From an uncultured Muriicola sp. (GTDB lineage Bacteria; Bacteroidota; Bacteroidia; Flavobacteriales; Flavobacteriaceae), in the NCBI GenBank assembly GCA_945786965.1, contig CALZFZ010000066.1:1-64000 (forward strand): 64,000 nucleotides of DNA, in the 5' to 3' direction. A model generated the notes under the pieces. It had not been told where the DNA came from. It saw nothing but the letters and a program-made list of their open reading frames with translations, and made no database searches. This document shows positions 1 to 35,749 of this stretch, piece after piece (position 1 is the stretch's first letter; every line of letters starts with the position of its first letter). The translations under genes and the position numbers were made by a program.

Positions 1-282
1 ATCGTAAGCCGGGTGCACTGCCACCAGCTGTCCTTGTAAATGTGTGGAAAGTTCTGTGATCTCCAACCCATACGAATTGATTTTCCCTTTTAGTTCATCG
101 CAATAGTCCTGGCTTTCCGCGGCTTTGTCAAGATCTATTAAAAAGTGCTCCCAGGTTGGAATTTGAATTCCTTTATACCCAAGATCCGCAGCCCATTGAC
201 ACATTCCATCCAGCGAATTAAATGGAGCTTTATTGTCTACGAACTGGGCCAGGAAAACTGCCGGTCCTTTTATCGTTTTCAT
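1..282 (-). CDS. Sugar phosphate isomerase/epimerase, TIM barrel (partial, C-terminus off the window)
   Basis: The reading frame runs on the minus strand from an ATG at 282 to the window edge without a stop, giving the first 94 residues (start MKTIKGPAVFLAQFVDN). The segment CQWAADLGYKGIQIPTWEHF is the beta1-alpha1 region typical of xylose-isomerase-like TIM-barrel (AP endonuclease 2 fold) proteins that isomerise or epimerise sugars or keto-sugars. There is no signal peptide, so it is probably cytoplasmic, unlike the two other TIM-barrel proteins of this island. It is divergent from the GMC dehydrogenase starting at 417 and probably acts on the same catabolic substrate. The start is supported by an AAGGAA stretch just upstream. 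The exact reaction cannot be read from the sequence. Confidence 0.75.
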   Translation of the reverse strand, partial: MKTIKGPAVFLAQFVDNKAPFNSLDGMCQWAADLGYKGIQIPTWEHFLIDLDKAAESQDYCDELKGKINSYGLEITELSTHLQGQLVAVHPAYD

Positions 283-416
283 ATGAATTCCTTAGTATAT
301 TATTGATTTTGTCTTTTTAGTCCCTTTCAGAATTAAGTCCTATATTTAATAGATCAATTATCAAATCACTGGACCTTAAGGGAACGTCATAAATATAGGA
401 AATACCTCAGAATTAA

Positions 417-2135
417 ATGAACAATACCCAGGACATTGTTGAAAAATACTACGATGCCATAGTAGTAGGAACGGGAATAACTGGTGGATGGGCTGCCAAA
501 GAGCTTTGTGAGAACGGACTTAAAACCCTTGTGCTGGATCGGGGACGTATGGTTAAGCATAATGAAGACTACCCAACCATGAACATGGACCCCTGGGACC
601 TCCCGAACAATAATGAACTTAGCCTGGAAGATAAAAAGAACTACCATAAACAATTTCGTGTGGGCTGGGCCCCAAAAGAGGACATAAAGCATTTTTTTGT
701 AAACGACCTGGAGCATCCCTATCAGGAGACCAAACGTTTTGATTGGATAAGAGGGTATCATGTGGGAGGTCGTTCTATAACCTGGGGTCGACAGAGTTAT
801 CGCTGGAGTGATCTCGATTTTGAAGCCAACCTTAAAGAAGGCATAGCCGTTGACTGGCCGGTACGTTATAATGATATTGCTCCCTGGTATGATAAGGTGG
901 AGGCCTATATTGGTGTAAGTGGAGAAAAACTGGGGTTGCCTCAACTCCCGGATGGTCAATTTCAGCCTCCGATGGACCTGACCTGCCCCGAAGAGGACTT
1001 TAAAAAGGTAATGGCTGAAAAGTTCGATGACGACCGAATTCTTACAATTGGACGGGTGGCTCATATCACGGATACAAAGGCACAAATAGAGGGAAGAACT
1101 CCTTGTCAATACAGAAACCGATGCTGGAGGGGTTGTCCGTTTGGCGGTTATTTCAGCAGCAACTCTTCAACACTGCCAGCTGCAGAACGCACGGGAAATT
1201 TAACACTCCGTCCCAATTCAATAGTATATGAGGTGATCTACGATGACATCACCCAAAAGGCCACAGGTGTAAAGGTGATAGACACAGAGACCCATGAAAA
1301 ATTTGAATATTACGCCAAGGTAATTTTCCTGTGTGCTTCGGCAATGGCTTCAGTTGGCATTTTGCTGAAATCAAAGTCGGAACGCTTTCCTAATGGGATC
1401 GGGAATAATTATGACCAGGTAGGCCGCAATATCATGGACCATCACTACCAATTGGGCGCCAGTGCCAAAATTGATGGTCATTTAGACAAATATTACAAAG
1501 GCAGAAGGCCAAATGGATTTTATATTCCGCGGTTTGTAAACCTGGACGATAAAACAAGAAAACGGGAATACCTCCGTGGTTTTGGTTATCAAGGAGGGGC
1601 TAGCAGAGGCGATTGGTCTGCCACCATAGCAGAAATGCAATATGGAAAAAAATTGAAAGAAAGCATCCTTAAACCGGGAGCATGGCAAATTGGAGTATCG
1701 GGTTTTGGAGAAATGCTGCCCTATGACGACAACAGGGTAACACTCAGTAAAACACATAAAGACCAATGGGGCCTTCCACAACTCGATTTTGATGTGGAAT
1801 TTAAAGACAACGAATATAAAATGAGGGAAGATATCATAAGGCAGATCGTATTGATGTATGAGGCCGCAGGATTCAGGGACATACAGCCTTATGAAAATGA
1901 TACGGGTCCGGGTTTAGGGATCCATGAAATGGGTGGTGCCAGGATGGGTTGGAACCCCCGTACCTCGGTGGTGAACAAAAACAATCAGGTACATGCGGTC
2001 CCCAATATTTATATTACCGATGGAGCTTTTATGACTTCGGCCAGTTGTGTAAATCCTTCACTAACATATATGGCCTTTACGGCCAGAGCGGCTAACCATG
2101 CTGCCACTGAATTTAAAGCAGGTAAATTTTCATAA
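417..2135 (+). CDS. GMC-family FAD-dependent oxidoreductase, paralog 1
   Basis: This 572-residue glucose-methanol-choline type flavoprotein has the N-terminal dinucleotide-binding motif GTGITG at residues 18-23, followed by the strand end TLVLDRGR. The C-terminal GMC_oxred_C part has H503 in HEMGGARMG and N546 in CVNPSLT, the expected catalytic His/Asn pair. A cysteine-rich segment (CQYRNRCWRGCPFG, near residues 230-243) is shared with the paralog at 6718. Members of this bacterial branch oxidise sugars or glycosides, often at C3, with a small 'subunit 3' partner. No partner gene adjoins this copy; the nearest is at 8436. There is no signal peptide, so export would need a Tat-bearing partner. 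An ASCH gene follows after 10 bases. The family is certain; the substrate is unknown. Confidence 0.92.
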   Translation: MNNTQDIVEKYYDAIVVGTGITGGWAAKELCENGLKTLVLDRGRMVKHNEDYPTMNMDPWDLPNNNELSLEDKKNYHKQFRVGWAPKEDIKHFFVNDLEHPYQETKRFDWIRGYHVGGRSITWGRQSYRWSDLDFEANLKEGIAVDWPVRYNDIAPWYDKVEAYIGVSGEKLGLPQLPDGQFQPPMDLTCPEEDFKKVMAEKFDDDRILTIGRVAHITDTKAQIEGRTPCQYRNRCWRGCPFGGYFSSNSSTLPAAERTGNLTLRPNSIVYEVIYDDITQKATGVKVIDTETHEKFEYYAKVIFLCASAMASVGILLKSKSERFPNGIGNNYDQVGRNIMDHHYQLGASAKIDGHLDKYYKGRRPNGFYIPRFVNLDDKTRKREYLRGFGYQGGASRGDWSATIAEMQYGKKLKESILKPGAWQIGVSGFGEMLPYDDNRVTLSKTHKDQWGLPQLDFDVEFKDNEYKMREDIIRQIVLMYEAAGFRDIQPYENDTGPGLGIHEMGGARMGWNPRTSVVNKNNQVHAVPNIYITDGAFMTSASCVNPSLTYMAFTARAANHAATEFKAGKFS

Positions 2136-2145
2136 CGTATATTCA

Positions 2146-2613
2146 ATGAAGAACGCATCAGCACGAAATTTATGGGGAGATTATTTGGATTCCCACTTGG
2201 AATACGCCTTTGCGGAAGAGCCAACGGTTACGCATTTTTGCGATAATGAAAAAGATGCCAATACATGCCTGAAATTAGTTCTTAAAGGTGTTAAAAAGGC
2301 TACCTCGCATTCGCTACTTGGACTTCAATACAGAAAAGAGCGGTTACCCAAAATAGGTGATTTTACCATCATTACAGACTGGAAAGGGAATGCAAAATGT
2401 ATAGTGAGGACTGTGGCAGTGCAATTAAAACCCTTTTTCAGCATCCGCGAATCCTACGCGAAACTGGAAGGGGAAGGCGATAAATCATTGGCGTACTGGA
2501 AAAAAACACATTGGGACTATTACACCCGGGAATTAGAACCATTCGGACGTGTTCCCCGGGATTCTATGATTGTGGTCTGTGAGGTCTTTGAAAAGGTCTT
2601 TGAGCGGAAGTAG
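2146..2613 (+). CDS. ASCH domain protein
   Basis: The 155-residue protein carries the ASCH fold, a PUA-like beta barrel: the KGVKKATSHS segment, then GDFTIITDWKGNAKCIVRT, and a C-terminal DSMIVVCEVFEKVF strand. Characterised ASCH proteins bind RNA or act on modified nucleosides (YqfB is an N4-acetylcytidine amidohydrolase; ZmASCH is a ribonuclease). The frame is open back to 2098, inside the GMC gene, but the ATG at 2146 follows the GMC stop and gives the normal family N-terminus, so I chose it. It may be co-transcribed with the GMC gene, with no obvious link to sugar oxidation. Its 3' end faces the Gfo/Idh gene 15 bases away, with no terminator visible between them. Confidence 0.85.
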   Translation: MKNASARNLWGDYLDSHLEYAFAEEPTVTHFCDNEKDANTCLKLVLKGVKKATSHSLLGLQYRKERLPKIGDFTIITDWKGNAKCIVRTVAVQLKPFFSIRESYAKLEGEGDKSLAYWKKTHWDYYTRELEPFGRVPRDSMIVVCEVFEKVFERK

Positions 2614-2627
2614 TTTAGCGCATTTGC

Positions 2628-3764
2628 CTAATCCAAGTCTACCCAAACATTTCCCCCTTTATGGGAAGCAACGGATGCTTCAATAAAATTGAGTCCGCGT
2701 ACCCCGTCGGTAATGGTAGGGAATTCTCCATCATTATATTTCTCTCCGCGAATAGCCCTGGCAACCCCCAAATAAATATTGGCCATGGAATCAAAGATCC
2801 CTTCCGGGTGACCGGGTGGTAGCTTAGTACCATTTAGCGATAATTTGGAATTATAGGCATGCCCGGGTTTATATACCTGCATGGCTTCTGTATCGCTAAG
2901 TTTATAGAGAAAATTAGGCCGTTCCTGTTCCCACAGCAAGCCAAATTTTTCACCGTAAATGCGAATGGCCAAGCCATTTTCTTCGCCCGTAGCTACCTGA
3001 CTGGCTCTGATAACCCCTTTTACATGGTCTCCCATCCGGATCAAGGCGGTACCATCCACATCCATCTGGTTGTCTGCATAGAGGTAGTTAAAATCACACA
3101 ATAAAGATTTTATTTTTAATCCCGTGGTATATTCAATTAGGTTAAAAGCATGCACTCCTATATCGCCCATGCAGGAACTTATACCTGCTTTCTTTGGATC
3201 TAATCGCCATACCGTAGATCGCTTTGCCTTGTCGTGAATGATGGTATTGATCCAGCCCTGATAGTACCTGGCATCTACTTTATGGATTTTTCCCAAAACG
3301 CCTGCTTTGATCATCTCGCGCATCTGGCGTACCATGGGATATCCTGTATAGGTGTGGGTCACCGCAAATACGGTACCTGCCTTTTTATGGGCTTCCCTTA
3401 ATATTTTAGCTTCTTCATAGGTAGTGGTCATGGGCTTTTCACAGATCACATGAAATCCATTATCCAACAATTTTTTCGCCATCGGAAAATGAAGAAAATT
3501 GGGTGTCAGGATAGAACATACCTGTATACGTTCATCCTTGGGTAATTTCAATTCTTCTTCCACCAGGGTGTCAAAATCCTTGTATATCCTATTGGTAGGG
3601 ACATCAATTTGTTTTGCAAATCCTAAATTTTCTTCAAAATTCGGATTAAAGACAGCCCCAACTATCTCATAATTATCATTGATAAAAGAGGCAACACGAT
3701 GCAGCACTCCAATAAGGGAGTCACCACCGCCACCTAATATTCCAAGTCTTATTTTTTTAGGCAT
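2628..3764 (-). CDS. Gfo/Idh/MocA family oxidoreductase
   Basis: The 378-residue protein has an N-terminal Rossmann domain with the glycine-rich loop LGILGGGGDSL (residues 7-17), the family signature EKP at 109-111, and a C-terminal substrate domain containing GDIGVHAFNLIEY. Such enzymes use NAD(P) to oxidise or reduce a sugar, inositol or keto-sugar hydroxyl. There is no signal peptide, so it is cytoplasmic. It is the last gene of a tight minus-strand operon (TIM barrel, DinB, MFS permease, this gene; gaps of 13-18 bases). This suggests it processes the imported sugar, for example by reducing a 3-keto intermediate. The direction of the reaction is inferred. Confidence 0.9.
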   Translation of the reverse strand: MPKKIRLGILGGGGDSLIGVLHRVASFINDNYEIVGAVFNPNFEENLGFAKQIDVPTNRIYKDFDTLVEEELKLPKDERIQVCSILTPNFLHFPMAKKLLDNGFHVICEKPMTTTYEEAKILREAHKKAGTVFAVTHTYTGYPMVRQMREMIKAGVLGKIHKVDARYYQGWINTIIHDKAKRSTVWRLDPKKAGISSCMGDIGVHAFNLIEYTTGLKIKSLLCDFNYLYADNQMDVDGTALIRMGDHVKGVIRASQVATGEENGLAIRIYGEKFGLLWEQERPNFLYKLSDTEAMQVYKPGHAYNSKLSLNGTKLPPGHPEGIFDSMANIYLGVARAIRGEKYNDGEFPTITDGVRGLNFIEASVASHKGGNVWVDLD

Positions 3765-3777
3765 CTTATTCTATATA

Positions 3778-5007
3778 TTACTTTTTATATTCTATTACTT
3801 CATTCTTAAAAAATATGGCAAAAAGTATGGATACTACTAGAGCAAAAATAGCAGGGAAGGTCCAAATACTGCCCCAATCATGTACATTTTCTGAAACGAG
3901 GTACATATCCGAAATTTTGCCAGCCACCCAAAATCCTATCAGCATACCAAAACCGTAAGTAGCCAGGGTTATTAACCCTTGAGCCGCGCTTTTGTATTTT
4001 TCACCTGCTTTGGAATCCGTATAAATTTGTCCTGATACAAAGAAAAAATCATAGCAAATACCATGCAGCGCTATCCCCAATATTAGCATAAATGCCAGGT
4101 CGCCTGCATTTCCATAAGCAAATAATACATACCTAAGAGTCCAGGCCAACATCCCTGCCATAATGGTTTTCTTGAAACCAAAATGCTTAAAGAAAAATGG
4201 CAGCAGTAACATGAACAATACTTCTGATGCCTGTCCTATTGTCATTTTGCCTGTAGGATTATTCATCCCGATCTCGGCAAGAAACGGATTCGCGTTCTGG
4301 TAATAAAAAGCAAGAGGGATGCAAATTAAAATGGATGATATGAAAAAGATAAGGAAATTCCGGTCCTTCAATAATTTAAGGGCATCCAATCCTAAAATAT
4401 CAGAAATACTTACCTTTTCCGCGCGATCTGCAGTAGGTGGTGTCTTAGGTAATGTGAAACTAAATAATCCTAAAACAGCCGAAGCTATTGCAACCATTAA
4501 GAATGTATTTTTTAGCATTCCTTCACCCCTTGATTCCGGTGAATCCCAGAGAAAAACATAACTGATGATTAAGCCTGCCACGATCCATCCGATAGTTCCG
4601 AAGACGCGCACAAATGAAAACTCCTTGGCAGGGTCTTTCATTTGATTAAAAGAAATGGAATTTACCAGGGCAAGGGTGGGCATGTAAATGATCATATACC
4701 CTAAAACATACGGGTAAAAGCCTGCAAAATCGACCGAGTTATACATTTGATACATCAAGACAGCACCCACTAAATGCAACACCGCCAGAATACGCTCTGC
4801 ATTAAAATACCGGTCGGCTATGAGTCCAATGATAAATGGCGCAATTATAGCCCCCCAGCTTTGGGTAGAAAATGCCATGGCTATTTCTCCGCCGCTTGCC
4901 CGCAAGTTATCCCCCAAAAAAGTCCCCAGAGTTACAAACCAACCTCCCCAAATAAAAAATTCAAGGAACATCATAAAGGATAACTGTATTTTAATTTTCG
5001 TGTTCAT
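3778..5007 (-). CDS. MFS permease, nucleoside:H+ symporter (NupG/XapB-like) family
   Basis: The 409-residue protein has about 12 hydrophobic segments. The first is FMMFLEFFIWGGWFVTLGTF, a hallmark of the Nuc_H_symport branch of the major facilitator superfamily, followed by the loop GLIADRYFNAERILA. It is an inner-membrane proton symporter. In Bacteroidota members of this branch are often found in sugar or glycoside clusters, so a sugar derivative is a likelier substrate than a nucleoside. It lies between a DinB gene (18 bases upstream) and Gfo/Idh (13 bases downstream) in one operon. It would be the import step for a product made in the periplasm by the GMC system. The family is clear; the substrate is inferred from context. 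Confidence 0.85.
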   Translation of the reverse strand: MNTKIKIQLSFMMFLEFFIWGGWFVTLGTFLGDNLRASGGEIAMAFSTQSWGAIIAPFIIGLIADRYFNAERILAVLHLVGAVLMYQMYNSVDFAGFYPYVLGYMIIYMPTLALVNSISFNQMKDPAKEFSFVRVFGTIGWIVAGLIISYVFLWDSPESRGEGMLKNTFLMVAIASAVLGLFSFTLPKTPPTADRAEKVSISDILGLDALKLLKDRNFLIFFISSILICIPLAFYYQNANPFLAEIGMNNPTGKMTIGQASEVLFMLLLPFFFKHFGFKKTIMAGMLAWTLRYVLFAYGNAGDLAFMLILGIALHGICYDFFFVSGQIYTDSKAGEKYKSAAQGLITLATYGFGMLIGFWVAGKISDMYLVSENVHDWGSIWTFPAIFALVVSILFAIFFKNEVIEYKK

Positions 5008-5025
5008 TCTTGGCTGTTTAAGTAA

Positions 5026-5469
5026 TTATCGTTTGTAAAAAACAAAGTCGAGTGGGATCGGTTCAAGACCATTCTCCCTTAGATCCATCAAAATCTGAGC
5101 CCTGTGATGGGTTGAATGATTAATGATATGAAATAACATATCTTGTATTGTATTGGTAAACAAACGCCCTTCGGTATTTTCATAGTCTATTCGTTCCTCA
5201 TAATCATCTGTATTAGTGATGATCTCAAAAGTATTTCGCTGATTCTCATAATGAATGTCTTCCCAGTCTTTTACCGGATGGAAATGCCATGCCTCCATAG
5301 TAGCCGAATTCCCTACAATTCTGGCATTCCAAATATGATGGGCATTTAACAAGTGGCTGAAAAGCTTTATGCTTCGCTCCGGTACCTTTGTTAATTTATT
5401 ACATGCTTCTATTAGCTGTTTATTACTATAAAAGTTGTAATCAAAAAGTTCATTAAAGAATTCTTCCAT
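5026..5469 (-). CDS. DinB-family four-helix protein
   Basis: The 147-residue protein has the DinB/YfiT layout: a helix ending LFSHLLNAHHIWNARI (near residues 36-51) and a C-terminal helix MLFHIINHSTHHRAQIL, supplying the histidines of a divalent-metal site. DinB-like proteins include thiol-dependent transferases and isomerases as well as many members of unknown function. The gene is second in the minus-strand operon, 14 bases after the TIM-barrel gene and 18 before the MFS gene. Its tight placement suggests a role in the catabolic island rather than DNA damage. No reaction can be assigned. Confidence 0.82.
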   Translation of the reverse strand: MEEFFNELFDYNFYSNKQLIEACNKLTKVPERSIKLFSHLLNAHHIWNARIVGNSATMEAWHFHPVKDWEDIHYENQRNTFEIITNTDDYEERIDYENTEGRLFTNTIQDMLFHIINHSTHHRAQILMDLRENGLEPIPLDFVFYKR

Positions 5470-5483
5470 TGAGATTCTGTGTA

Positions 5484-6485
5484 TTATGTAAGTTTAGCTG
5501 CTGCATTCAGCATTAATGTTTTTGTTGCCATGATGCCTTCAACTTCTCCAAGTTCATCGCCTTCATATTCTACACCTACAAAACCGGTGTAGCCGGCATC
5601 TTTTACTATTTGAAGCATTTTAACGTAGTCTATTTCGGTTTCATTTCCGTTGGCATCAAAGTTGTGCGATTTTGCACTTACCGCTTTGGCAAAAGGCATT
5701 AATTCCGTTACTCCTTTATAGATATCGTACATCTCTGCGCATCCCGCCCGGTAATCTGCCGGATCATTTCTTCGGATACAGAAATTGCCAAAATCGGGCA
5801 GCGTTCCACAATTATCCATCCCAACCTTGGTCATCACCTCAGCTAACATAGCAGCATTGGAGGAAAGTCCGCCATGGTTTTCTACAAGCACGTTGATATT
5901 CTTCTCCCTGGCATAGGTAGCCAGTTGTGTAAGTCCGTCTACTGAATTAGGTACCCACTCTTCGGGCACACTGCTTCCGGCAAGGTTAACACGTATAGAA
6001 TGGCACCCCATAGCACTGGCTGCATCTACCCATTTAAAATGATTCTCAGCAGCACTTTTTCGTGTTGCCGCATCGGAAGTTGCAAGGTCTCCCTGCCCAT
6101 CGATCATGATGAGCACATTCGTTAAACCGTGTTTTTCAGCTTCGGCATTCGATTTCTCTACAAAAGCGGCCATTGCCTCGGCACTGTAGTTTGCAGCTTC
6201 CAGTTCCTTATTATACAATTGACTCACGTATTCCAGACCACTGAACCCCCATTCCTTGGCTTTTGCGGCAAAAGAATATGGATCCAATTCTCCGTTCCTG
6301 ATCATTCTGTGGACAGACCATTGAGCCAATGATAATTTAAAAAATGGCGCTGCCGTTTCCATCACGGATTCCATTTCATTTTCTTTGCTCTCATCTTTTT
6401 TGGCTTCTTTGCAGCCATAAATTCCCAGGACAGATAATCCGATTCCTGCCGTTGTTGTGTTCTTTACAAAATTTCTTCTTTTCAT
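5484..6485 (-). CDS. Exported TIM-barrel sugar isomerase/epimerase, Tat-like signal with lipobox
   Basis: The 333-residue protein starts MKRRNFVKN, a twin-arginine-like motif, followed by a hydrophobic stretch ending LGIYGC. The cysteine at 25 could be lipidated, giving a membrane-anchored periplasmic protein. A charged linker rich in K, E and M (residues 26-44) precedes the barrel. The body (LSLAQWSVHRMI, GLEYVSQLY, SIRVNLAGSS, VLVENHGGLSSN, GTLPDFGNFC, FVGVEYEGDE) is a xylose-isomerase-like TIM barrel, with E and H metal ligands implied by VENHGG and GVEYEGD. It is the first gene of the four-gene minus-strand operon and is divergent from GMC paralog 2 across 232 bases. An epimerase, isomerase or 3-keto-sugar role is plausible; the substrate is unknown. 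Confidence 0.85.
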   Translation of the reverse strand: MKRRNFVKNTTTAGIGLSVLGIYGCKEAKKDESKENEMESVMETAAPFFKLSLAQWSVHRMIRNGELDPYSFAAKAKEWGFSGLEYVSQLYNKELEAANYSAEAMAAFVEKSNAEAEKHGLTNVLIMIDGQGDLATSDAATRKSAAENHFKWVDAASAMGCHSIRVNLAGSSVPEEWVPNSVDGLTQLATYAREKNINVLVENHGGLSSNAAMLAEVMTKVGMDNCGTLPDFGNFCIRRNDPADYRAGCAEMYDIYKGVTELMPFAKAVSAKSHNFDANGNETEIDYVKMLQIVKDAGYTGFVGVEYEGDELGEVEGIMATKTLMLNAAAKLT

Positions 6486-6679
6486 TGTGTTTGTAATATA
6501 AGGATTAGTACTTACAGACCTTAATTTGACACAGTTTTTAAAACTCAGCCATGATTAAGAAATGGAAAATAATGTATATGTATTAATAATTGATTGTTAA
6601 TTTATTTATTCTCAAGAAAACATTGATTTTATAAGCAAATCAGGAAGAATTAGGGAGTTTAAATGTAGAGAATTAATTT

Positions 6680-6687
6680 TATATTTG
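6680..6687 (+). promoter_or_regulatory. Candidate Bacteroidota promoter (-7 element) for the GMC2 operon
   Basis: TATATTTG matches the Bacteroidota consensus TAnnTTTG exactly and lies 30 bases before the ATG at 6718. A TTTA about 19 bases upstream (6658-6661) is a partial -33 element. Transcription would begin near 6694. This is a sequence match only. Confidence 0.45.
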
Positions 6688-6717
6688 ATACATTTAGCAG
6701 GTAAACAATTCTATTAG

Positions 6718-8436
6718 ATGGGTAAATTTTATTACAATGAAGAGCAGGAATCGTATGATGCGATTGTTGTTGGAACAGGAATCAGTGGAGGCTGGGCTGC
6801 CAAGGAGTTATGTGAAAATGGACTTAAGACCCTGGTCCTGGAACGCGGAAGGATGGTTAAACATCGTGAAGATTATCCTACCGCAAATATGGATTTCTGG
6901 GATTTTCCGAATAATGGGGAACTACCCCCGGAAGAAGTAGCTAAACAGTTAAAGCAGGCGCGTACCGGATATACGGTAAAGGCGCCTCATAATTTTTGGT
7001 TTGTCAATGACCTGGAACATCCTTATAATGAAACAAAACGCTTCGATTGGATGCGTGGATATCATGTAGGAGGAAGATCCTTGCTTTGGGGCCGACATAG
7101 CTACCGCTGGAGCGATCTGGATTTTGAAGCTAATAAAAAGGACCGCATTGCCGTGGATTGGCCGGTGCGCTATAAAGATATTGCACCTTGGTATTCAAGG
7201 GTTGAAACCTATGTTGGGATATCCGGTGAAACTTTAGGACTTCCTCAATTACCGGATAGTGTGTTTGAGCCGATGATGGAACTGAATTGTGTTGAACAAC
7301 ATGTCAGGGAAAAAGTAGCCGAGAATTTTGGGGGACGGGTAATCACATCAGGCCGTGTGGCCCATATTAATAGCGCTAATCAATTTGACGGGGACGGAAG
7401 AACCCGCTGCCAGTATAGGAACAGATGCATCCGGGGGTGTCCTTTTGGAGCTTATTTCAGCAGTAACTCCTCTACCTTACCGGCTGCGGAAGCCACCGGA
7501 AATATGACGCTTAGACCCGATTCTATTGTTCACGAGGTTATGTACGATCCCGATACCAAAAAAGCAACAGGGGTAAAAGTTATTGACAGGGTTACCAAAG
7601 AAACTTTTGAATTTAAAGCTAAGGTGGTCTTCCTGTGTGCCTCTGCCATAGCATCAGCCGCTATTTTGATGCAGTCAAAATCGGACCGTTTTCCAAATGG
7701 AATGGGTAATGACTCAGATCAATTAGGACGTAATATTATGGATCACCATCTTGGAGTAGGCGCCGCAGGGAAATATGACGGGTTTGAAGATAAATTTTAC
7801 AAGGGAAGAAAGCCTAATGGGGTTTATGTGCCACGCTTCCGGAATATTGGCGGGGATACCAATATGAAGGAATTTATTCGCGGATATGGCTATCAGGGCA
7901 GTGGTAGCCGGGGCAATTGGGAAGACGTTGTTTCTGAGATGTCTCATGGGAAAAGCCTTAAAGAAGCTATTCTCAAACCGGGAGGATGGACTTTCGGGAT
8001 CAGTGGTTTTGGTGAAGTGCTGCCCTATGAAGATAACAGGATGACCCTGGACTATGACCAATTAGATGGATGGGGCCTACCTACGGTAACATTTGATGCC
8101 GAGTTTAAAGAAAATGAGTGGAAGATGAGGAAAGATATGAAAGAACAGGCCTATGAGATGCTCTCAAAAGCCGGCCTTAGGGACGTTGAAACCTTTGATA
8201 GGCCAGGGGCCCTAGGTTTGGGGATCCATGAGATGGGTACCGCACGGATGGGAAGAGATCCTAAAACTTCCGTCTTAAACGGATACAACCAGGTACACGC
8301 CGTTCAAAATGTGTATGTAACAGATGGTGCCTTTATGACCTCTGCGGCCTGTGTAAACCCTTCATTGACCTATATGGCATTTACAGCAAGAGCTGCAAAT
8401 CATGCCGCTGAACAACTTAAAAAAGGATTATTATAA
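6718..8436 (+). CDS. GMC-family FAD-dependent oxidoreductase, paralog 2
   Basis: At 572 residues it is the same length as the copy at 417 and collinear with it throughout. It has the FAD motif GTGISG, the RGYHVGGRS loop, the cysteine-rich segment CQYRNRCIRGCPFG, H504 in HEMGTARMG and N547 in CVNPSLT. Unlike paralog 1 it is followed directly by its presumed partner: its TAA overlaps the ATG of the subunit 3 gene by one base (TAATG), so translation is probably coupled. Catalytic subunits of this kind have no signal peptide and are thought to be carried through the Tat pore by the small subunit. The likely role is periplasmic oxidation of a sugar or glycoside, with electrons passed to the respiratory chain. 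C3 oxidation is inferred from related clusters. Confidence 0.93.
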   Translation: MGKFYYNEEQESYDAIVVGTGISGGWAAKELCENGLKTLVLERGRMVKHREDYPTANMDFWDFPNNGELPPEEVAKQLKQARTGYTVKAPHNFWFVNDLEHPYNETKRFDWMRGYHVGGRSLLWGRHSYRWSDLDFEANKKDRIAVDWPVRYKDIAPWYSRVETYVGISGETLGLPQLPDSVFEPMMELNCVEQHVREKVAENFGGRVITSGRVAHINSANQFDGDGRTRCQYRNRCIRGCPFGAYFSSNSSTLPAAEATGNMTLRPDSIVHEVMYDPDTKKATGVKVIDRVTKETFEFKAKVVFLCASAIASAAILMQSKSDRFPNGMGNDSDQLGRNIMDHHLGVGAAGKYDGFEDKFYKGRKPNGVYVPRFRNIGGDTNMKEFIRGYGYQGSGSRGNWEDVVSEMSHGKSLKEAILKPGGWTFGISGFGEVLPYEDNRMTLDYDQLDGWGLPTVTFDAEFKENEWKMRKDMKEQAYEMLSKAGLRDVETFDRPGALGLGIHEMGTARMGRDPKTSVLNGYNQVHAVQNVYVTDGAFMTSAACVNPSLTYMAFTARAANHAAEQLKKGLL

Positions 8437-9083
8437 TGGATAGAAGAGTAGCATTAAAAAATATGGGCCTGGCGCTCGGATATACCGTAGCCACCCCCAC
8501 ACTATTAAGCCTAGTTCAAGGTTGTAAAGAAGTAGAAATAGTTAACTGGACACCTGATTTTTTTACTATAGAACAGGGGAATATCCTTATTAAGCTGGTG
8601 GATATCATCCTGCCTAAAACGGATACCCCTTCTGCCTCTGAAGTGAATGTACATGTATTCTTAGATAGGTTCACAAATGAGATTATGGAAGAGCTTCAGC
8701 AGGATATGACAAAATTGTCTCTTAACAAGTTCATCCAAAATGCACTAATTGAGACCGGAAAGGAGAAAGCCGAGGATCTGACCTCAGAAGACCTGGAACC
8801 TGTTCTGGCGAAAGCTTTGCAAGTCAGTGAAGAAGAGGAAATTGCAAATATGGAACTGATGATTAAAAATACCTCGGCCGCAGCCAAGGGAGAAAATGAC
8901 GCGGTCCCTGACGAGGTCATGAGATACTCTTTTGCTAAAAACCTGCGCGATATGACCATATGGGGATATAAAACTTCAGAATATGTTGGTGAGGAAGTAC
9001 TTGCGTATCTGCCCGTTCCCGGAGAATATATCGGTTGCGGAGATCTTAATGAACTCACAGGGGGCAAAGATTGGTCCCTATAA
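8436..9083 (+). CDS. Gluconate 2-dehydrogenase subunit 3 family protein, Tat/lipoprotein partner of the GMC enzyme
   Basis: The 215-residue protein starts MDRRVALKNMG, a twin-arginine-type motif, with a hydrophobic stretch ending SLVQGC (C30), a possible lipobox. The mature part holds the family features IIKLVDIILPKTDTPSASE(V) near residues 50-70 and the C-terminal PVPGEYIGCGDLNE. In characterised FAD sugar dehydrogenases the small subunit is needed for export and stability of the GMC subunit. The start overlaps the GMC stop by one base. A TIM-barrel gene follows after nine bases. It may also serve the orphan GMC at 417. Whether the cysteine is really lipidated is uncertain, because Q at -2 is uncommon. 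Confidence 0.88.
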   Translation: MDRRVALKNMGLALGYTVATPTLLSLVQGCKEVEIVNWTPDFFTIEQGNILIKLVDIILPKTDTPSASEVNVHVFLDRFTNEIMEELQQDMTKLSLNKFIQNALIETGKEKAEDLTSEDLEPVLAKALQVSEEEEIANMELMIKNTSAAAKGENDAVPDEVMRYSFAKNLRDMTIWGYKTSEYVGEEVLAYLPVPGEYIGCGDLNELTGGKDWSL

Positions 9084-9092
9084 CTTATTTCC

Positions 9093-10013
9093 TTGAAAAG
9101 AAGAAGCTTCATAAATAAATCAGCTTTTGTAGCAAGTACCTTGTCCCTGACGGGGTTTACTGCCCTAGGCTCTGCGTCTAAGGCTTCTGCCAAACATACC
9201 TTTAATCTGAAATACGCACCGCATATTGGTATGTTTAAACATAGTGCCGGTGAAGACCCAATTTCGCAGCTTCATTTCATGGCAGACCAGGGGTTTACTG
9301 CCTTTGAGGACAATGAAATGATGCAGCGCTCTGTTGCCTTACAAGAAGAAATGGCGAAGTCCATGGCAACCCGTAGTATTGAAATGGGTGTGTTTGTTGC
9401 CCATAAAATTTATTGGTCCGAACCCAATCTCGCTTCCGGGGATCCGGAAAAACGAGTCGAATTTTTAGATTATATTAAAAAGGCTGTTGAGGTAGCAAAG
9501 CGGGTGAATGCCAAATGGATGACGGTAGTACCAGGACATGTGGATCTAAGGCTCAACATGGGATACCAAACAGCTCATGTGATCGAATCTTTGAAACAGG
9601 CCGCAGCCATTTTAGAACCACATAATTTGGTTATGGTCTTAGAACCGCTGAATTTTAGAAACCATCCGGGTCTTTTTTTAACAGGATCTGCACAAGCTTA
9701 TGAGATATGTAAAGCAATAGATTCTCCATCCTGTAAAATACTGTTCGATATCTATCATCAACAAATCCAGGAAGGAAACCTGATCCCGAATATTGAATCT
9801 TGCTGGAGCGAAATAGCCTATTTTCAAATCGGGGATAACCCAGGACGTAATGAGCCTACTACGGGCGAAATTAATTACCAAAATGTATTGAAATATATTC
9901 ATTCCAAAGGTTTTGCCGGTGTCCTGGGAATGGAACATGGCAATTCAAAACCTAATATCGAGGGAGAAGAAGCGGTGATTAATGCCTATAAAAAAGTAGA
10001 TCAATTCAGATAA
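9093..10013 (+). CDS. Hydroxypyruvate isomerase-like TIM-barrel protein with Tat signal
   Basis: The 306-residue protein begins at a TTG codon; no ATG or GTG lies in frame where the signal peptide must start. TTG gives MKRRSFINKSAFVASTLSLTG, a twin-arginine signal with a cleavage site near ASAKH (about residue 34). The body is a TIM barrel like the hydroxypyruvate isomerase family: FKHSAGED near the N-terminus, WMTVVPGHVD, VLEPLNFRNHPG, ILFDIYHQQIQEG and GEINYQNVLKYI, with Glu/Asp/His metal ligands. It is the third gene of the GMC2 operon, nine bases after subunit 3. It is probably periplasmic and acts on the GMC product. The true substrate need not be hydroxypyruvate. Confidence 0.87.
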   Translation: MKRRSFINKSAFVASTLSLTGFTALGSASKASAKHTFNLKYAPHIGMFKHSAGEDPISQLHFMADQGFTAFEDNEMMQRSVALQEEMAKSMATRSIEMGVFVAHKIYWSEPNLASGDPEKRVEFLDYIKKAVEVAKRVNAKWMTVVPGHVDLRLNMGYQTAHVIESLKQAAAILEPHNLVMVLEPLNFRNHPGLFLTGSAQAYEICKAIDSPSCKILFDIYHQQIQEGNLIPNIESCWSEIAYFQIGDNPGRNEPTTGEINYQNVLKYIHSKGFAGVLGMEHGNSKPNIEGEEAVINAYKKVDQFR

Positions 10014-10132
10014 CGGTCAATTTCAGAACGCCACCTTGGAATCTTTACTTCAATTCTGTTTTTGATCACTATATAATCCATTTTCACTTTTAGTACGTAA
10101 ATACTAGTAAGCCGTTAATACTTGTACCTGCT

Positions 10133-10219
10133 ATGGACCATTATTTTATTTTTCTTTTTATTTATATCGCAGTATTGATCATAACCAATAGTGCGATAAG
10201 ACCTTCTATGAATAAATAA
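10133..10219 (+). CDS. Possible 28-residue hydrophobic peptide
   Basis: ATG at 10133 opens 28 codons ending TAA. The peptide starts MDHYFIFLFIYIAVLIITNS and would form a single membrane helix. It sits in an A+T-rich gap where chance hydrophobic frames are common. No promoter element or ribosome site supports it, and its 3' end overlaps one arm of an inverted repeat. It is recorded as a candidate small protein only. Confidence 0.15.
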   Translation: MDHYFIFLFIYIAVLIITNSAIRPSMNK

Positions 10220-10225
10220 AGGTCT
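10199..10225. repeat. Inverted repeat AGACCTT/AAGGTCT
   Basis: Perfect 7-base arms (10199-10205 and 10219-10225) flank a 13-base A+T-rich loop. No T-run follows on either strand, so terminator function is unlikely. The role is unknown. Confidence 0.35.
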
Positions 10226-10308
10226 AATACTTGTACACACGCTACGAGTACTGATGCACGCTGCGCTCTTCAGTATGTCCTAAAGTGACTCCCCAGATCT
10301 AAAATAAA

Positions 10309-10358
10309 ACACCCCGAGAATTCGCTATGTGTGGGGCAAGCGATCCCGAGGTATTTTT
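10309..10358. terminator. Two-sided terminator between the GMC2 operon and nrdA
   Basis: The arms ACCCCGAGAATTCGC (10311-10325) and GCGATCCCGAGGT (10340-10352) pair, with the mismatches of the plus strand becoming G-U pairs on the minus strand. On the minus strand the stem is followed by TGTTTTATTTT, so it best serves nrdA. On the plus strand TATTTTTAATAA follows, so it may also stop the GMC2 operon. Confidence 0.6.
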
Positions 10359-10395
10359 AATAATAAACACTATCCTTTTACCGTTCGCATAAGCA

Positions 10396-10419
10396 TCAGG
10401 AATTTAATTTTATTCCTGA
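10396..10419. repeat. Perfect 8-base inverted repeat just after nrdA
   Basis: TCAGGAAT (10396-10403) and ATTCCTGA (10412-10419) flank an 8-base A/T loop, 23 bases beyond the nrdA stop. No T-run follows on the minus strand. It may stabilise the 3' end of the nrdA message. Confidence 0.35.
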
Positions 10420-10441
10420 GGGCGTAGGTTTATATCCATGG

Positions 10442-12928
10442 TTATGATCCGCACATTAAGCAGTCGTCATCTGCTTCTCCAGCTTTGGCTTGTGCGATCA
10501 ATGTCTTCATCTCTTCCGGTGTCAGGGGAGCCACCTCCGGTTCTTCCTGCTTAACAGACGTTGTTTGAACCTGAATTGCCGCTGCAGCTTTAGGGTCAGG
10601 AGTACTCGCTGCAAGCACCTCGGCCTCAGCCGCCACACTTACCGGAACTTCTTTTTTCTTAGTGTTATCCAGTGTAAATTTAATGGCATCTACTGCCGCT
10701 TTGGTCCTCAGATAGTACATGCCTGTTTTTAAACCGCTTTTCCAGGCATAAAAATGCATTGAGGTCAGTTTCGGATAATTGGCATTTTCCATAAACAGGT
10801 TTAACGATTGACTCTGATCAATAAAATAGCCACGCTGTCTGGACATATCGATGATATCTTTCATGCTCAACTCCCATACCGTCTTGTAAAGTTCTTTTAT
10901 TTCTTCAGGTATCTCATTAATATGCTGAATAGAACCGTTTGCCCGCATCAATTCCTGCTTCAAGTTCTCATTCCACAATCCCAGTCCTACCAGATCTTCA
11001 AGCAGATGTTTGTTTACAACAATAAATTCTCCAGACAATACACGTCTTGTATATATATTGGAAGTATAGGGTTCAAAGCATTCGTTATTCCCAAGAATCT
11101 GAGATGTTGAAGCCGTTGGCATGGGCGCAACCAGGAGTGAATTTCGAACTCCATGTTTCTTTACGCTCTTGCGTAACTTTTCCCAATCCCATCTTCCGGA
11201 AAGTTCATCATCTTTAATTCCCCAAAGGTTGTGCTGAAATTCTCCTTTGGAAATAGGAGATCCTTTGTAAGTTGAGTAAGGCCCTTCTTCTTTCGATGCT
11301 TCCATAGAAGCAGTTACAGCGGCAAAATACAAGGTTTCAAAAATTTCCTGGTTTAATTTTCTTGCCTCATCACAGGTAAAAGGTAAACGCAACATGATAA
11401 AAGTATCGGCTAATCCCTGTACCCCTAGCCCTATTGGCCTGTGACGCATGTTTGAATTCTCGGCTTCTTTTACCGGATAGTAATTCCTGTCAATAACACG
11501 ATTCAAGTTTTTGGTAACACGTTTTGTAACCCTGAATAATTCCTTATGATCAAAACTGCCATTCTTTACGAACATGGGTAGGGCAATGGAAGCCAAATTA
11601 CACACTGCAACCTCATCCGGTGAGGTATACTCCATAATCTCAGTACACAAGTTGCTGGAACGGATAGTTCCTAAATTCTTTTGATTGCTTTTGCGGTTCG
11701 CCGCATCTTTATAGAGCATATACGGCGTCCCCGTTTCTATTTGAGATTCAAGGATCTTTTCCCAGAGCTCTCGTGCCTTTATTGTCTTACGGCCTTTTCC
11801 TTCGGTTTCATATCGGGTATACAGTTCTTCAAAGGCTTCACTGTGGTTTGTGAAAAGACCCGGACATTCATTTGGACACATCAAGGTCCACTCGCTATCT
11901 GTCTCTACTCTTTTCATAAAAAGATCCGGGATCCACATGGCATAAAAAAGATCACGTGCCCGCATCTCTTCTTTACCATGGTTCTTTTTTAATTCAAGGA
12001 ATTCAAAGATATCTGCATGCCATGGTTCCACATAAACGGCAAAGCTTCCTTTTCTTTTTCCGCCTCCCTGATCCACGTAGCGTGCCGTATCATTAAAAAC
12101 GCGGAGCATTGGCACTATACCATTTGAAGTGCCATTGGTCCCCGCAATATAGGACCCCGTGGCCCTGATATTGTGAATAGACAGGCCAATACCACCAGCA
12201 GATTGCGATATTTTCGCAGTTTGCTTCAGGGTATCATAAATACCATCGATGCTATCATCCTTCATTGCTAATAAAAAGCATGAGGACATTTGAGGTTTCG
12301 GTGTTCCCGAGTTGAATAGGGTAGGCGTAGCATGGGTGAAGAATTTTTTGGACATCAACTCATAGGTCTCTATGGCAGAATCCAAATCTTCCAGGTGTAT
12401 CCCTATGGATACTCGCATCAACATATGTTGCGGTCTCTCTGCAATCTTACCGTTTAGTTTTAAGAGATAGGATCGTTCCAAAGTCTTAAAACCGAAATAA
12501 TCGTAGCCAAAATCGCGGTTATAAATAATGGTAGAATCGAGCATGTCTGCATTTTCCGATATGACCTTATAAACCTCATCCGATAATAAGGGTGCTTTTT
12601 TACCGGTCCTAGGATTTACATATTCATGCAGGTCTTTCATCGTTTCTGAAAACGACTTCTTGGTGTTCTTGTGAAGGTTTGAAACGGAAATCCTTGCCGC
12701 CAACTTTGCATAATCGGGATGCGCCGTCGTTAATGTTGCGGCAATTTCGGCTGCCAAATTATCGAGCTCCGATGTAGTAACTCCATCATACAGTCCTTCA
12801 ATAACTCTCATAGTTACCCTTACAGGATCCACAAGATCACTAAGTCCATAACAAAGTTTTCTGACTCTGGCCGTGATCTTGTCGAACATTATCGGCTCTT
12901 TTCTTCCGTCTCTTTTTACTACATACAT
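10442..12928 (-). CDS. nrdA: Ribonucleoside-diphosphate reductase, alpha (large) subunit, class I
   Basis: The 828-residue protein reduces ribonucleotides to deoxyribonucleotides together with NrdB. An N-terminal ATP-cone ([17 protein letters not shown]) gives the overall activity site. The catalytic core follows: C217 in QMSSCFLL is one redox-active cysteine, [11 protein letters not shown] is the NxCxE radical-cysteine motif, and CNLASIALP and [13 protein letters not shown] are conserved strands. The C-terminal tail DDCLMCGS supplies the C823/C826 pair that is re-reduced by thioredoxin. A low-complexity Ala/Glu/Pro linker (about residues 760-800) precedes the tail. nrdB lies upstream on the same strand, but 124 bases with a terminator separate them. 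It ends before a two-sided terminator. The identification is secure. Confidence 0.97.
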
Positions 12929-13010
12929 GTGGCTACAATTATTTAATTATTATCCGTTGGGTTGGTACTTAGATTTTTTGCTAAATCTTAACATTTTCAA
13001 TATGGTCACA

Positions 13011-13036
13011 AAAAACCCCAATAAAAAAAGGGGTTA
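13011..13036 (-). terminator. Terminator-like hairpin between nrdB and nrdA
   Basis: AACCCC (13014-13019) and GGGGTT (13030-13035) form the stem. On the minus strand the hairpin is followed by TTTTTGTG. It lies after the nrdB stop and before the nrdA start, so it should end or attenuate transcription coming from nrdB. Confidence 0.6.
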
Positions 13037-13052
13037 TTGTGGTAATTATTAT

Positions 13053-14039
13053 CTAAAAATCAGCGTCGAAGCTTATTTTTTGAGAATCTGTATCTTTTTC
13101 TTTGTTCAATACTCCGGCCTTTTGATATTCGGATACACGTTTTTCAAAGAAATTGGTTTTTCCCTGAAGTGAGATCATATCCATAAAATCAAAAGGATTT
13201 GTGGCATTATACACCCTCTCGCATTCCAGTTCAACCAAAAGTCGGTCAGTGACAAACTCTAAATATTGGGTCATAAGTTTAGAGTTCATTCCAATTAAAC
13301 TTGCGGGTAATGATTCTGTAATGAATTCTCTTTCTATGTTAAGTGCGTCTACGATAATTTCTGTAATTCGTTTTTTGGGAACTTTGTTTACCAGGTGTTT
13401 GTTGTGAAGATGAACTGCATAGTCACAGTGCACTCCTTCATCTCTGGAAATTAACTCATTCGAAAAAGTAAGTCCTGGCATAAGGCCTCTTTTCTTCAAC
13501 CAGAAAATAGAACAAAAGGCACCGGAGAAAAAGATTCCTTCCACAGCGGCAAACGCAATAAGCCGTTCTGCAAAACTTGGGGAATCGATCCATTTCAAGG
13601 CCCAATCGGCTTTTTTCTTGATTGCAGGAAAGTTTTCTATCGCCTTAAAAAGTATGTTTTTTTCTTTTTCGTCCTTTACATACGTATCGATCAACAAGGA
13701 ATAGGTTTCCGAATGGATATTTTCCATCATGATCTGAAACCCGTAGAAAAATTTGGCCTCTGTATACTGTACTTCATTTACAAAGTTCTCCGCCAAATTC
13801 TCATTGACGATTCCGTCAGAGGCCGCAAAAAAGGCCAAAATATGTTTTATAAAATAACGCTCATCGTCGTTTAGCTTATTTTTCCAATCGGCCAAATCCT
13901 GATGTAAGTCAATCTCCTCAGCTGTCCAGAAACATGCTTCGCATTTCTTATACCATTCCCATAAATCATGGTGTTTAATGGGGAAGATCACAAATCTATC
14001 TTCATTTTCCTCTAAAATGGGCTCTACGGATACTGACAT
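13053..14039 (-). CDS. nrdB: Ribonucleoside-diphosphate reductase, beta (small) subunit, class Ia-like
   Basis: The 328-residue radical-generating subunit is all helical. The iron ligands and radical tyrosine resemble eukaryotic-type R2: D44 in AEEIDLHQD, then E106, H109 and Y113 in the spacing ENIHSETY, followed by LLIDTYV. A later E/E/H set lies in [10 protein letters not shown] and [16 protein letters not shown]. The tyrosine is present, so a standard tyrosyl-radical diiron enzyme is expected. The C-terminal [11 protein letters not shown] tail is the segment that docks on NrdA. It is the first gene of the nrdB-nrdA pair. No perfect TAnnTTTG lies just upstream; the nearest match is CATCTTTG near 14102 on the minus strand. 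Confidence 0.96.
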
Positions 14040-28763: not shown

Positions 28764-29315
28764 TTAGGCCTCCGGATTTTTTTCCCGAATACGCTTATAC
28801 AGACGTATCCCCAACATCAACATAATTACCAATAGGAAGATACCGATAACTCCGTATATCCAGTCGATCGCATTTTTAATAATGGCAAGGAAGGTTACGG
28901 CAAATAAAATAAGCGTCGCCACCTCGTTATAAATCCGCATATAGTTTGAACTGTACTTCACCTCATCTCGTTGCAATTCCTTAAACATTTTGTGGGTTAC
29001 CAATTGGTAGATGATCAATAACACTACAAACCCAAGTTTCACATGCATCCAGGGTTGTTGCATCCAACCGGGCATAATTAACAACAACCAGATCGCAAAT
29101 ATCGTCGTCAAAATCGCTGAGGGCCATGTAATGATGTACCATAATCGTTTGGTCATTAACTTCAACTGTTTGGATAGAATTTCTTTGTCCGGTGAAGGCT
29201 TGTCCTGGGCCTCAATATGATAAATAAATAGCCTTGGAATATAAAAAAGACCAGCAAACCAGGTTATTACAAAAATCAAATGTAATGCCTTAATGTAATT
29301 ATAATATTCCCCCAT
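28764..29315 (-). CDS. hemJ: Protoporphyrinogen IX oxidase HemJ-type
   Basis: The 183-residue membrane protein has four or five helices. The N-terminus IKALHLIFVITWFAGLFYIPRLFIYH (residues 8 on) is the HemJ signature, with H12 likely a haem or substrate ligand. WMHVKLGFVVLL and RIYNEVATLILF are later conserved parts. HemJ oxidises protoporphyrinogen IX to protoporphyrin IX, the step between HemF and HemH, both present elsewhere in this window. The ATG overlaps the stop of the propeller gene at 29315 by one base (TAATG). It lies about 12 kb away from hemH and 16 kb from the main hem operon. Confidence 0.85.
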   Translation of the reverse strand: MGEYYNYIKALHLIFVITWFAGLFYIPRLFIYHIEAQDKPSPDKEILSKQLKLMTKRLWYIITWPSAILTTIFAIWLLLIMPGWMQQPWMHVKLGFVVLLIIYQLVTHKMFKELQRDEVKYSSNYMRIYNEVATLILFAVTFLAIIKNAIDWIYGVIGIFLLVIMLMLGIRLYKRIREKNPEA

Positions 29316-32300: not shown

Positions 32301-32446
32301 ATAACCCCAGTCGCGGTTACAGACCTGCCTCCCCGGAAGGGGCCAATATTCCTGTATTTTAAGGGTTTAAAGTACTCTTCGGCGGTTTGGGCCAATACCA
32401 TGCCCACGGTAAAAAAGGCGATTAGTAATGCGATTTTTTGTTTCAT
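29315..32446 (-). CDS. Large secreted Sortilin/VPS10-like beta-propeller protein, paralog 1
   Basis: The 1,043-residue protein has a signal peptide (1-20, ending LAQ). Many repeats of the type 'GlyLeu-Tyr-Lys-Ser-x-Asp-Gly-Gly-x-x-Trp' (e.g. [28 protein letters not shown]) form a BNR/Asp-box propeller like VPS10 or sialidase repeats. The start of the mature part, [12 protein letters not shown], is a family hallmark. The last 250 residues form a beta-sandwich-like part, then helices ([17 protein letters not shown]). There is no T9SS C-terminal domain and no lipobox. It is often annotated as a glycosyl hydrolase, but no catalytic acids can be assigned. It is followed by hemJ with a one-base overlap. 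Confidence 0.85.
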
Positions 32447-32508
32447 AGTTCTTTAGGAATATAATATTGTAATTGATCTATTTAAATCAGGGTTCGGGAA
32501 ACGAATAA

Positions 32509-32537
32509 TAAACCCCGCTTTGCAAAGGCAGGGCTTA
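32509..32537 (-). terminator. Probable terminator between the two propeller genes
   Basis: AACCCCGCTTTGC (32511-32523) pairs with GCAAAGGCAGGGCTT (32522-32536), apart from bulges. On the minus strand it is followed by TTTATTATT. It lies 29 bases after the stop of the propeller gene at 32566. Confidence 0.5.
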
Positions 32538-32565
32538 TCCTTTAGTATTTAAAGATTTTGCCTCA

Positions 32566-35694: not shown

Positions 35695-35721
35695 TTTGCG
35701 TAGTGTTCGAATTAGCTGCCT

Positions 35722-35749
35722 TAAATGTACCAAAAAAGATGAGAACCAA
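35722..35749 (-). promoter_or_regulatory. Candidate -33/-7 promoter for the propeller gene at 35694
   Basis: On the minus strand TTG (35749-35747) is followed after 17 bases by TACATTTA (35729-35722), one mismatch from TAnnTTTG. A start near 35715 gives a 21-base leader and excludes the longer in-frame start at 35781. Confidence 0.4.

Follow-up and report, generated by a model that had tools for sequence, protein, structure and literature searches.

The window analysed here comprises the first 64,000 nucleotides of contig C66 (CALZFZ010000066.1) from the incomplete genome of an uncultured Muriicola sp. of the Flavobacteriaceae (80% complete, 214 contigs), and it opens with a gene island encoding two dehydrogenases of the GMC family (GMC1 and GMC2), a protein of the gluconate 2-dehydrogenase subunit 3 family (SUB3), three TIM barrels (TIM_A, TIM_B and TIM_C), a Gfo/Idh/MocA oxidoreductase, a permease, a DinB-family protein and an ASCH-domain protein. 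Judging from the homologies of these proteins, we consider it likely that the island encodes the oxidation-first cleavage of a small glycoside. A list of open reading frames (ORFs) and a Pfam scan confirmed that the genes named in a preliminary description of this DNA are real and have the positions and families assigned to them, while the ASCH gene at 2146-2613 (+) had been missed; all island proteins reach the Pfam cut-offs with the sole exception of the truncated TIM_A, which scores 24 bits where 31.1 are required. Instead of the two divergent operons of that description, the strands give four gene runs in two divergent pairs, i.e. TIM_A and onwards (-) against GMC1-ASCH (+), and TIM_B-DinB-permease-Gfo/Idh (-) against GMC2-SUB3-TIM_C (+), with operon status read from strand only. 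The last run is tightly packed (SUB3 begins on the last base of GMC2, and nine bases separate SUB3 from TIM_C), and the right-hand neighbours of the island are nrdA and nrdB according to Pfam.

TIM_A (1..282, - strand) is represented in the window by its N-terminal 94 residues, which lack a signal motif. This truncation is due to the contig end and not to the choice of window: contig C199 of the same genome ends in 30 bases that are identical, in frame, to the 30 with which the window starts, and the remainder of TIM_A (residues 85-350) is present at C199:7494-8291. Next to TIM_A, C199 carries two genes for PF06439 3-keto-disaccharide hydrolases (159.4 and 138.4 bits against a cut-off of 26.8), both starting with a lipoprotein-like leader when read by eye, beyond which lie yicC, a frame resembling guanylate kinase (by eye) and a gene similar to nadD. 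The relatives L038, L046 and L054 show this order too, with either one or two genes of the PF06439 type. Because of the contig break, the gene for a 3-keto-glycoside-cleaving enzyme thus belongs to the island but is unseen in the window. Among relatives, TIM_A is followed in 39 of 41 cases by a gene of the PF06439-type cluster c4; of this cluster, three proteins from relatives and the two of the window genome were scanned, and all five were PF06439.

A full-length TIM_A relative (L035), 95% identical to TIM_A over the fragment and scoring 127 bits in Pfam where the fragment falls short, aligned along its whole length with PDB 8ro4, titled 2-hydroxy-3-keto-glucal hydratase (554 bits, E 1e-165, query residues 1-350 to chain 1-349). 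By sequence this match is the firmest functional anchor of the island, and it identifies TIM_A as a homologue of the hydratase, not as an isomerase. The label "TIM-barrel isomerase-like", given previously to all three barrels, therefore does not hold for the first one, and TIM_B and TIM_C are candidates for a lyase and an epimerase/isomerase, respectively. TIM_A is well conserved, with 94 invariant positions across 52 aligned rows; in the top 40 of 351 matching plasmid records, the proteins are 65-68% identical to it, those listed being from Proteobacteria. With the hydratase homologue and the PF06439 hydrolases, two kinds of 3-keto-sugar enzyme are tied to the island, in support of the pathway class (3-keto-glycoside) proposed for it earlier.

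GMC2 (6718..8436, +; PF05199 74.3 bits) is a candidate flavin adenine dinucleotide (FAD)-dependent glycoside 3-dehydrogenase without a signal motif, and it aligned with the large subunit of fructose dehydrogenase (7w2j) at 139 bits over residues 9-570. Its neighbour SUB3 (8436..9083, +; PF13618 85.8 bits) starts MDRRVA and has a leader of the twin-arginine translocation (Tat) lipoprotein type, in which R3, R4 and C30 are invariant in 31 of 31 aligned proteins; a resemblance of SUB3 to the small subunits in the dehydrogenase complexes for fructose or glucose is possible. GMC enzymes have a catalytic His/Asn pair, and the pair previously given as H503/N546 is conserved: of 110 aligned GMC rows, 109 have the His and 108 the Asn, with gaps in the remainder; this numbering is that of GMC1, the equivalents in GMC2 being H504/N547. 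Two PF13618 genes were found in the genome, the first adjoining GMC2 and the second next to a further GMC on a different contig (C24:14874-17156), the latter GMC being 34% identical to GMC2. GMC1 (417..2135, +; PF05199 73.7 and PF00732 49.1 bits), the second FAD dehydrogenase of the island, has no adjoining subunit 3 gene.

The Gfo/Idh/MocA oxidoreductase (2628..3764, -; PF22725 77.2 and PF01408 72.2 bits) lacks a signal motif and is probably a 3-keto-hexose reductase. It matched PDB 3v5n at 293 bits, an entry whose name gives no function, and two closer assignments were rejected on score: levoglucosan dehydrogenase (NF052479, 91.6 bits against a cut-off of 650) and the BT_2158 glycoside 3-dehydrogenase (NF058561, 33.6 bits against 750). 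The adjacent permease (3778..5007, -) is a major facilitator superfamily (MFS) protein of the Nuc_H_symport family (PF03825, 402.5 bits) and probably imports a keto sugar.

TIM_B (5484..6485, -) starts MKRRNF, has a leader that is both Tat-like and lipoprotein-like, and is a candidate periplasmic 3-keto-glycoside eliminase (lyase). Its structural model (predicted local distance difference test score, pLDDT, 89) fitted best to 4ovx (Z 41.6, root-mean-square deviation 1.3, 269 aligned), a Planctomyces protein whose title names no function, followed by Art22 (Z 29.5) and by D-tagatose 3-epimerase-like and C-glycoside deglycosidase chains (Z ≈25-27), with many epimerases ranking just below the deglycosidases. 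In a profile search 4ovx scored 374 bits, and between 52 and 29 bits came the chains of the deglycosidases, interspersed with Art22 and D-tagatose 3-epimerases; ACE2 rows were ignored since they align to the leader/start only (profile positions 5-76). On this modelling TIM_B is a lyase candidate, for which an epimerase role is nearly as likely. TIM_C (9093..10013, +; TTG start; PF01261 112.5 bits) has a Tat-like leader (MKRRSF) and is a candidate periplasmic keto-sugar epimerase/isomerase: its model (pLDDT 84) fitted 3ngf (Z 29.8), 1k77 (29.2) and the 3-keto-glucoside 4-epimerase YcjR (6wn6, 26.6) among many epimerases, and its profile matched 3ngf (117 bits), 1k77 (89), several 3-epimerases and then 6wn6 (52 bits).

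We compared 80 loci around relatives of GMC2; as these rank highest among 589 confirmed, the set favours close relatives, and since some loci end at contig ends the locus counts are lower bounds. SUB3 is present in 74 of the loci, TIM_B in 52, Gfo/Idh in 50, a PF06439-type gene (cluster c4 or c22) in 47, TIM_A in 44, the permease in 41 and TIM_C in 22, while GMC1 (by best hit), ASCH and DinB are found in 21 each. Within the 44 TIM_A loci, Gfo/Idh is present in 44, SUB3 in 43, TIM_B in 42, the permease or a second MFS protein (cluster c18) in 42 and a PF06439-type gene in 40, and two of the four loci without the latter are cut by the locus end. The core, consisting of the hydratase, Gfo/Idh, permease, TIM_B, GMC, subunit 3 and hydrolase genes, recurs as a block; the arrangement is not due to chance and recurs across the family, and in part of the flavobacterial loci the island is fixed between yicC/gmk/nadD and nrdA.

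Among 149 genomes drawn evenly from the family, that of the window included, 77 have a GMC (threshold E 1e-60) and 71 have TIM_A: 69 have both, 8 the GMC alone, 2 TIM_A alone (G036 and G121) and 70 neither (Fisher p ≈2e-30, shared ancestry not corrected for). Where the genome has a listed GMC, 62 of the 68 TIM_A copies are located at most 12.8 kb from a GMC and the remaining six on other contigs. This count took 70 of the 72 listed TIM_A copies (leaving out the split copy of the window genome and the second G004 copy) and most of the listed GMC rows (without a number of fragments, the rows of the window genome and those at 33-36%). The preliminary description had let its proposal depend on the genes being linked in related genomes, and such linkage was found.

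Downstream of GMC1, the ASCH gene (PF04266, 75.6 bits) follows directly in 18 loci, and a subunit 3 gene is never the next gene to GMC1 on any covered side (the left side of GMC1-ASCH was not covered in L043, L050 and L052). ASCH appears to be accessory and present in part of the loci only; three of its 21 loci lack GMC1, and it occurs together with DinB in 20. We computed a GMC tree of 70 rows, for which GMC1 and plasmid sequences had to have 480 residues or more and every other GMC2 sequence was taken; the plasmid rows L133 and L134 are on long branches. The GMC1 of the window forms a clade of 18 rows (100/100) with those of 17 of the 18 loci that have ASCH behind GMC1, the L043 copy being too short for the tree. 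The genes of L068, L069 and L103 that are "GMC1" by best hit are set outside this clade and are not the GMC1 of the window. Three GMC genes lie beside one subunit 3 gene in L103, and L110 has three GMC frames, perhaps broken; it is therefore plausible that one SUB3 serves more than one GMC enzyme. The DinB-family protein (5026..5469, -; PF05163 57.9 bits) has conserved histidines (H39, H44, H118 and H122, in at least 21 of 22 rows). A search of the genome, which is 80% complete, detected no BshC (0 of 1), and this speaks weakly against a bacillithiol-dependent DinB.

Compartments were read from motif counts (RR within the first 30 residues) and not from signal predictions. The motif is present in 74 of 76 SUB3 and in all 22 TIM_C proteins, and in none of 81 GMC2 and 41 permease proteins; it occurs in 5 of 54 Gfo/Idh proteins, all five of a separate Tat-type cluster (c20), and in one of 44 TIM_A proteins (L044, with a frame starting too early). 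These counts fit a location of SUB3, TIM_B and TIM_C outside and of TIM_A and Gfo/Idh inside, with GMC2 carried out by SUB3, and to that extent they agree with the periplasmic oxidation and cytoplasmic Gfo/Idh step suggested previously. Cytochrome c and azurin, candidate electron acceptors of GMC/subunit 3, form clusters in 19 of the 80 loci (one member of each was scanned): cytochrome c in 11 (L063-L065, L071, L072, L074, L075, L079, L081, L083 and L085) and azurin in 8 (L068, L069, L073, L076, L077, L090, L093 and L110).

From the genes, homologies, linkage, signal motifs and conserved residues described above we infer a route, of which each reaction, the sequence of steps, the electron acceptor and the substrate are all proposals. 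Outside the inner membrane, GMC2, exported together with the Tat-type lipoprotein SUB3, would oxidise a sugar at C3, with a cytochrome c or azurin as the electron acceptor. Cleavage of the resulting 3-keto-glycoside would also take place outside; the PF06439 proteins encoded next to TIM_A could perform it by hydrolysis, or by elimination combined with hydration, and TIM_B, in addition or instead, by β-elimination to 2-hydroxy-3-keto-glucal. The permease would import the 3-keto-hexose and/or the keto-glucal; inside, TIM_A would hydrate the keto-glucal to 3-keto-glucose, which Gfo/Idh would reduce to the hexose. TIM_C, where present, may epimerise keto sugars outside and so allow entry of other stereoisomers. 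A more specific version appears doubtful to us, namely that the enone 2-hydroxy-3-keto-glucal is formed outside by exported eliminases (TIM_B and PF06439), imported by the Nuc_H_symport permease and then hydrated by TIM_A, with two GMC enzymes on one Tat carrier subunit and with DinB, in the operon in part of the family, guarding against the enone.

Several observations weigh against the oxidation-first route or parts of it. Eight of the 77 GMC genomes lack TIM_A (G013, G025, G047, G062, G115, G136, G142 and G146), TIM_A is not seen in the covered part of 31 of the 74 SUB3 loci, in some cases because the contig ends, and PF06439 is absent from two TIM_A loci with room for it (L072 and L083). 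The similarity of GMC2 extends to dehydrogenases of fructose and glucose, so that its sequence does not establish C3 specificity, and SUB3 matched no solved structure as a single sequence, while its best profile hit (E 0.49) is at chance level. No cytochrome gene was detected by Pfam scan in the island of the window. The export motifs of TIM_B are uneven among 51 relatives (RR in 22, a lipobox-like motif in 19, both in 7 and neither in 17), its fold is also common to many epimerases and isomerases, and it is the best match of no TIM barrel in eleven plasmid loci compared with the island, where further barrels match TIM_C or nothing. An assignment of TIM_B or TIM_C as AtOGE was not upheld: 8BVK, the AtOGE structure, is unlisted for both profiles at E up to 1, although a distant relation is possible and the PDB copy may file 8BVK under another chain. 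The rows displayed from the structural comparisons do not include 8BVK either, an absence that carries no weight. The eliminase role of TIM_B thus draws on a shared fold and a weak sequence kinship.

Some of these points suit a purely hydrolytic scheme, to which we give some credence but which we hold to be less likely than not: PF06439 proteins would cleave outside, the 3-keto-hexose would be imported and reduced, TIM_A would salvage keto-glucal arising as a by-product, and TIM_B would be an epimerase, not a lyase. The name of the PF06439 family (3-keto-disaccharide hydrolase) and its position next to TIM_A agree with this, as do the epimerase-like fold of TIM_B, its absence from the plasmid clusters, and the hydrolysis of 3-keto-lactose by a PF06439-type protein that is proposed, on fitness data, in PMC9007349. 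A salvage role is harder to reconcile with the conservation of TIM_A, one of the highest in the enzyme set and evident also in the plasmid records cited above, and with plasmids L131, L132 and L136, which pair TIM_A with Gfo/Idh and a sugar importer with GMC and PF06439 neither annotated nor matched within 7 kb, unlike what is expected of a clean-up enzyme; moreover, TIM_B ranks near the C-glycoside deglycosidases.

Action of the island on a non-sugar is unlikely, judging from the sequences. If the substrate were a cyclitol or another non-glycoside polyol, GMC would oxidise it, TIM_A would be an IolE-like inosose dehydratase and Gfo/Idh an inositol dehydrogenase; TIM_A does match the IolE family (57 bits against a cut-off of 290) and Gfo/Idh weakly the inositol 2-dehydrogenase family (35 against 355). 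We set this pathway aside on these scores compared with the full-length 554 bits of TIM_A to the keto-glucal hydratase 8ro4, and since PF06439 genes are part of the block and no further inositol-breakdown family was seen among the scanned island and C199 proteins, it seems very improbable. Scarcely more credible is an incomplete oxidation for energy only, in which GMC/SUB3 feed the respiratory chain and the keto product stays outside. The cytochrome c and azurin clusters and the SUB3 loci without visible TIM_A speak for such a scheme, whereas the window itself holds a permease, a hydratase and a reductase, and the hydratase is present in 69 of the 77 GMC genomes.

Turning to known systems, the GlycDH of Agrobacterium tumefaciens is presumably of GMC type, and lacB of Caulobacter crescentus is, we assume, a cytochrome; in the Bacteroides thetaiotaomicron BT2156-BT2160 pathway, oxidation is reportedly by a Gfo/Idh glycoside 3-dehydrogenase. 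PMC10628242 describes an A. tumefaciens operon, GlycDH-AtOGE-AtHYD-Gfo, for oxidation, elimination, hydration and reduction, in which the AtHYD activity is termed preliminary and the Tat partner came from Rhizobium sp. GIN611. The PDB entry 8ro4 gives only its title, from which we take it to be this AtHYD. The island resembles that operon in having linked genes for a dehydrogenase with a Tat partner, a hydratase homologue, a Gfo/Idh reductase and a TIM-barrel cleavage enzyme; it differs in having no listed AtOGE match and in adding export motifs on TIM_B and TIM_C, PF06439, the MFS permease and a second GMC. In PMC9007349, the C. crescentus cluster reads lacABC-DUF1080-transporter-two sugar epimerases-reductase, similar clusters are reported from Indibacter, Algoriphagus and Halomonas titanicae, and BT2157 is named for PF06439-type cleavage of 3-keto glycosides. 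Compared by description, the Caulobacter cluster shares with the island a periplasmic multi-part dehydrogenase, an exported PF06439 protein, a transporter, "epimerases" and a reductase, all linked; unlike it, the window's island has no cytochrome gene, and part of the flavobacterial loci occupy the set place between yicC/gmk/nadD and nrdA. The B. thetaiotaomicron pathway has PF06439-type cleavage of 3-keto glycosides in common with the island, and NCBIfam families exist for it (BT_2158_fam and BT_2159_fam), whereas the window's island would oxidise by GMC/FAD and its Gfo/Idh falls far below the BT_2158 cut-off. With the C-glycoside deglycosidases DgpBC/CarBC the island shares the fold of TIM_B (Z ≈25-27) and the 3-keto substrate chemistry, but no DUF6379 β subunit was found among ten scanned island proteins.

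The plasmid loci vary in content. GMC, subunit 3, PF06439, permease, TIM_A and Gfo/Idh are present in those of Xanthomonas sacchari, Hymenobacter and Halomonas, and by match or annotation in that of Pseudoalteromonas; the Paracoccus locus has an ATP-binding cassette (ABC) importer in place of the permease. Within the stretches covered, the loci of Ketogulonicigenium (with an ABC importer) and Croceicoccus have no PF06439 and that of Catenovulum has no TIM_A or Gfo/Idh, and in Peteryoungia, Neorhizobium and Phyllobacterium only TIM_A and Gfo/Idh lie beside an ABC importer. TIM_B has so far been seen in Bacteroidota loci only. In the Croceicoccus plasmid (L133), a pair of a TIM barrel and DUF6379 and a glycoside hydrolase family 3 (GH3) gene lie near TIM_A, Gfo/Idh, subunit 3 and GMC, and this locus may unite C-glycoside and O-glycoside modules.

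Since the Caulobacter and Agrobacterium gene sets are published, the island is a further case of an already described system, of a type that has been recognised only in recent years; an open-access literature search found no paper on a Bacteroidetes or flavobacterial version. Because 69 of the 149 genomes hold both GMC and hydratase, oxidation-first cleavage is probably common among flavobacteria for small glycosides, and this route would escape surveys that count glycoside hydrolases and SusCD loci. The full ordered gene set, including the part on the second contig, provides a list of enzymes and bears on where the keto-glucal crosses the membrane. No glycoside hydrolase was found in the window's island, no SusC-sized ORF other than nrdA in window positions 1-14039, where a SusC/SusD pair was looked for, and the flavobacterial promoter pattern gave no match against 2.5 expected.

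Among further observations, a gene of cluster c50 lies within the island of L050 (2514-5723), between ASCH and Gfo/Idh, and in the same position in L052, these loci being from a Eudoraea metagenome-assembled genome (MAG) and Zobellia uliginosa; the L050 copy encodes a LacZ-type glycoside hydrolase family 2 (GH2) β-galactosidase and hints at galactosides or lactose-like substrates. A SusC-like receptor adjoins the island in L062. The c20 cluster is found in ten loci (L042, L066, L073, L077, L080, L082, L084, L091, L093 and L102) and consists of Tat-type, BT_2158-like Gfo/Idh proteins encoded alongside GMC; the L042 copy, at 823.8 bits, is above the BT_2158 cut-off of 750, and by these matches the c20 loci carry two kinds of 3-dehydrogenase side by side. 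A second Gfo/Idh of the window (22309-23733, +), outside the island and with a Tat-like leader (MQRRKF), scored 484.5 bits against the same cut-off and is possibly a nicotinamide adenine dinucleotide (NAD)-type 3-dehydrogenase. At 35894-38098 (+) we found a pyrroloquinoline quinone (PQQ)-type dehydrogenase with a cytochrome c domain (PF01011 569 bits; NCBIfam 436 bits against a cut-off of 832.65), which may be another periplasmic sugar or alcohol dehydrogenase. The L107 contig is labelled as from a Gammaproteobacteria MAG while its GMC falls within the Bacteroidota part of the tree, indicating either a transfer or a mis-binned contig. Finally, two adjoining large proteins with Sortilin-Vps10/BNR repeats are encoded at 29315-35781 (-) of the window.

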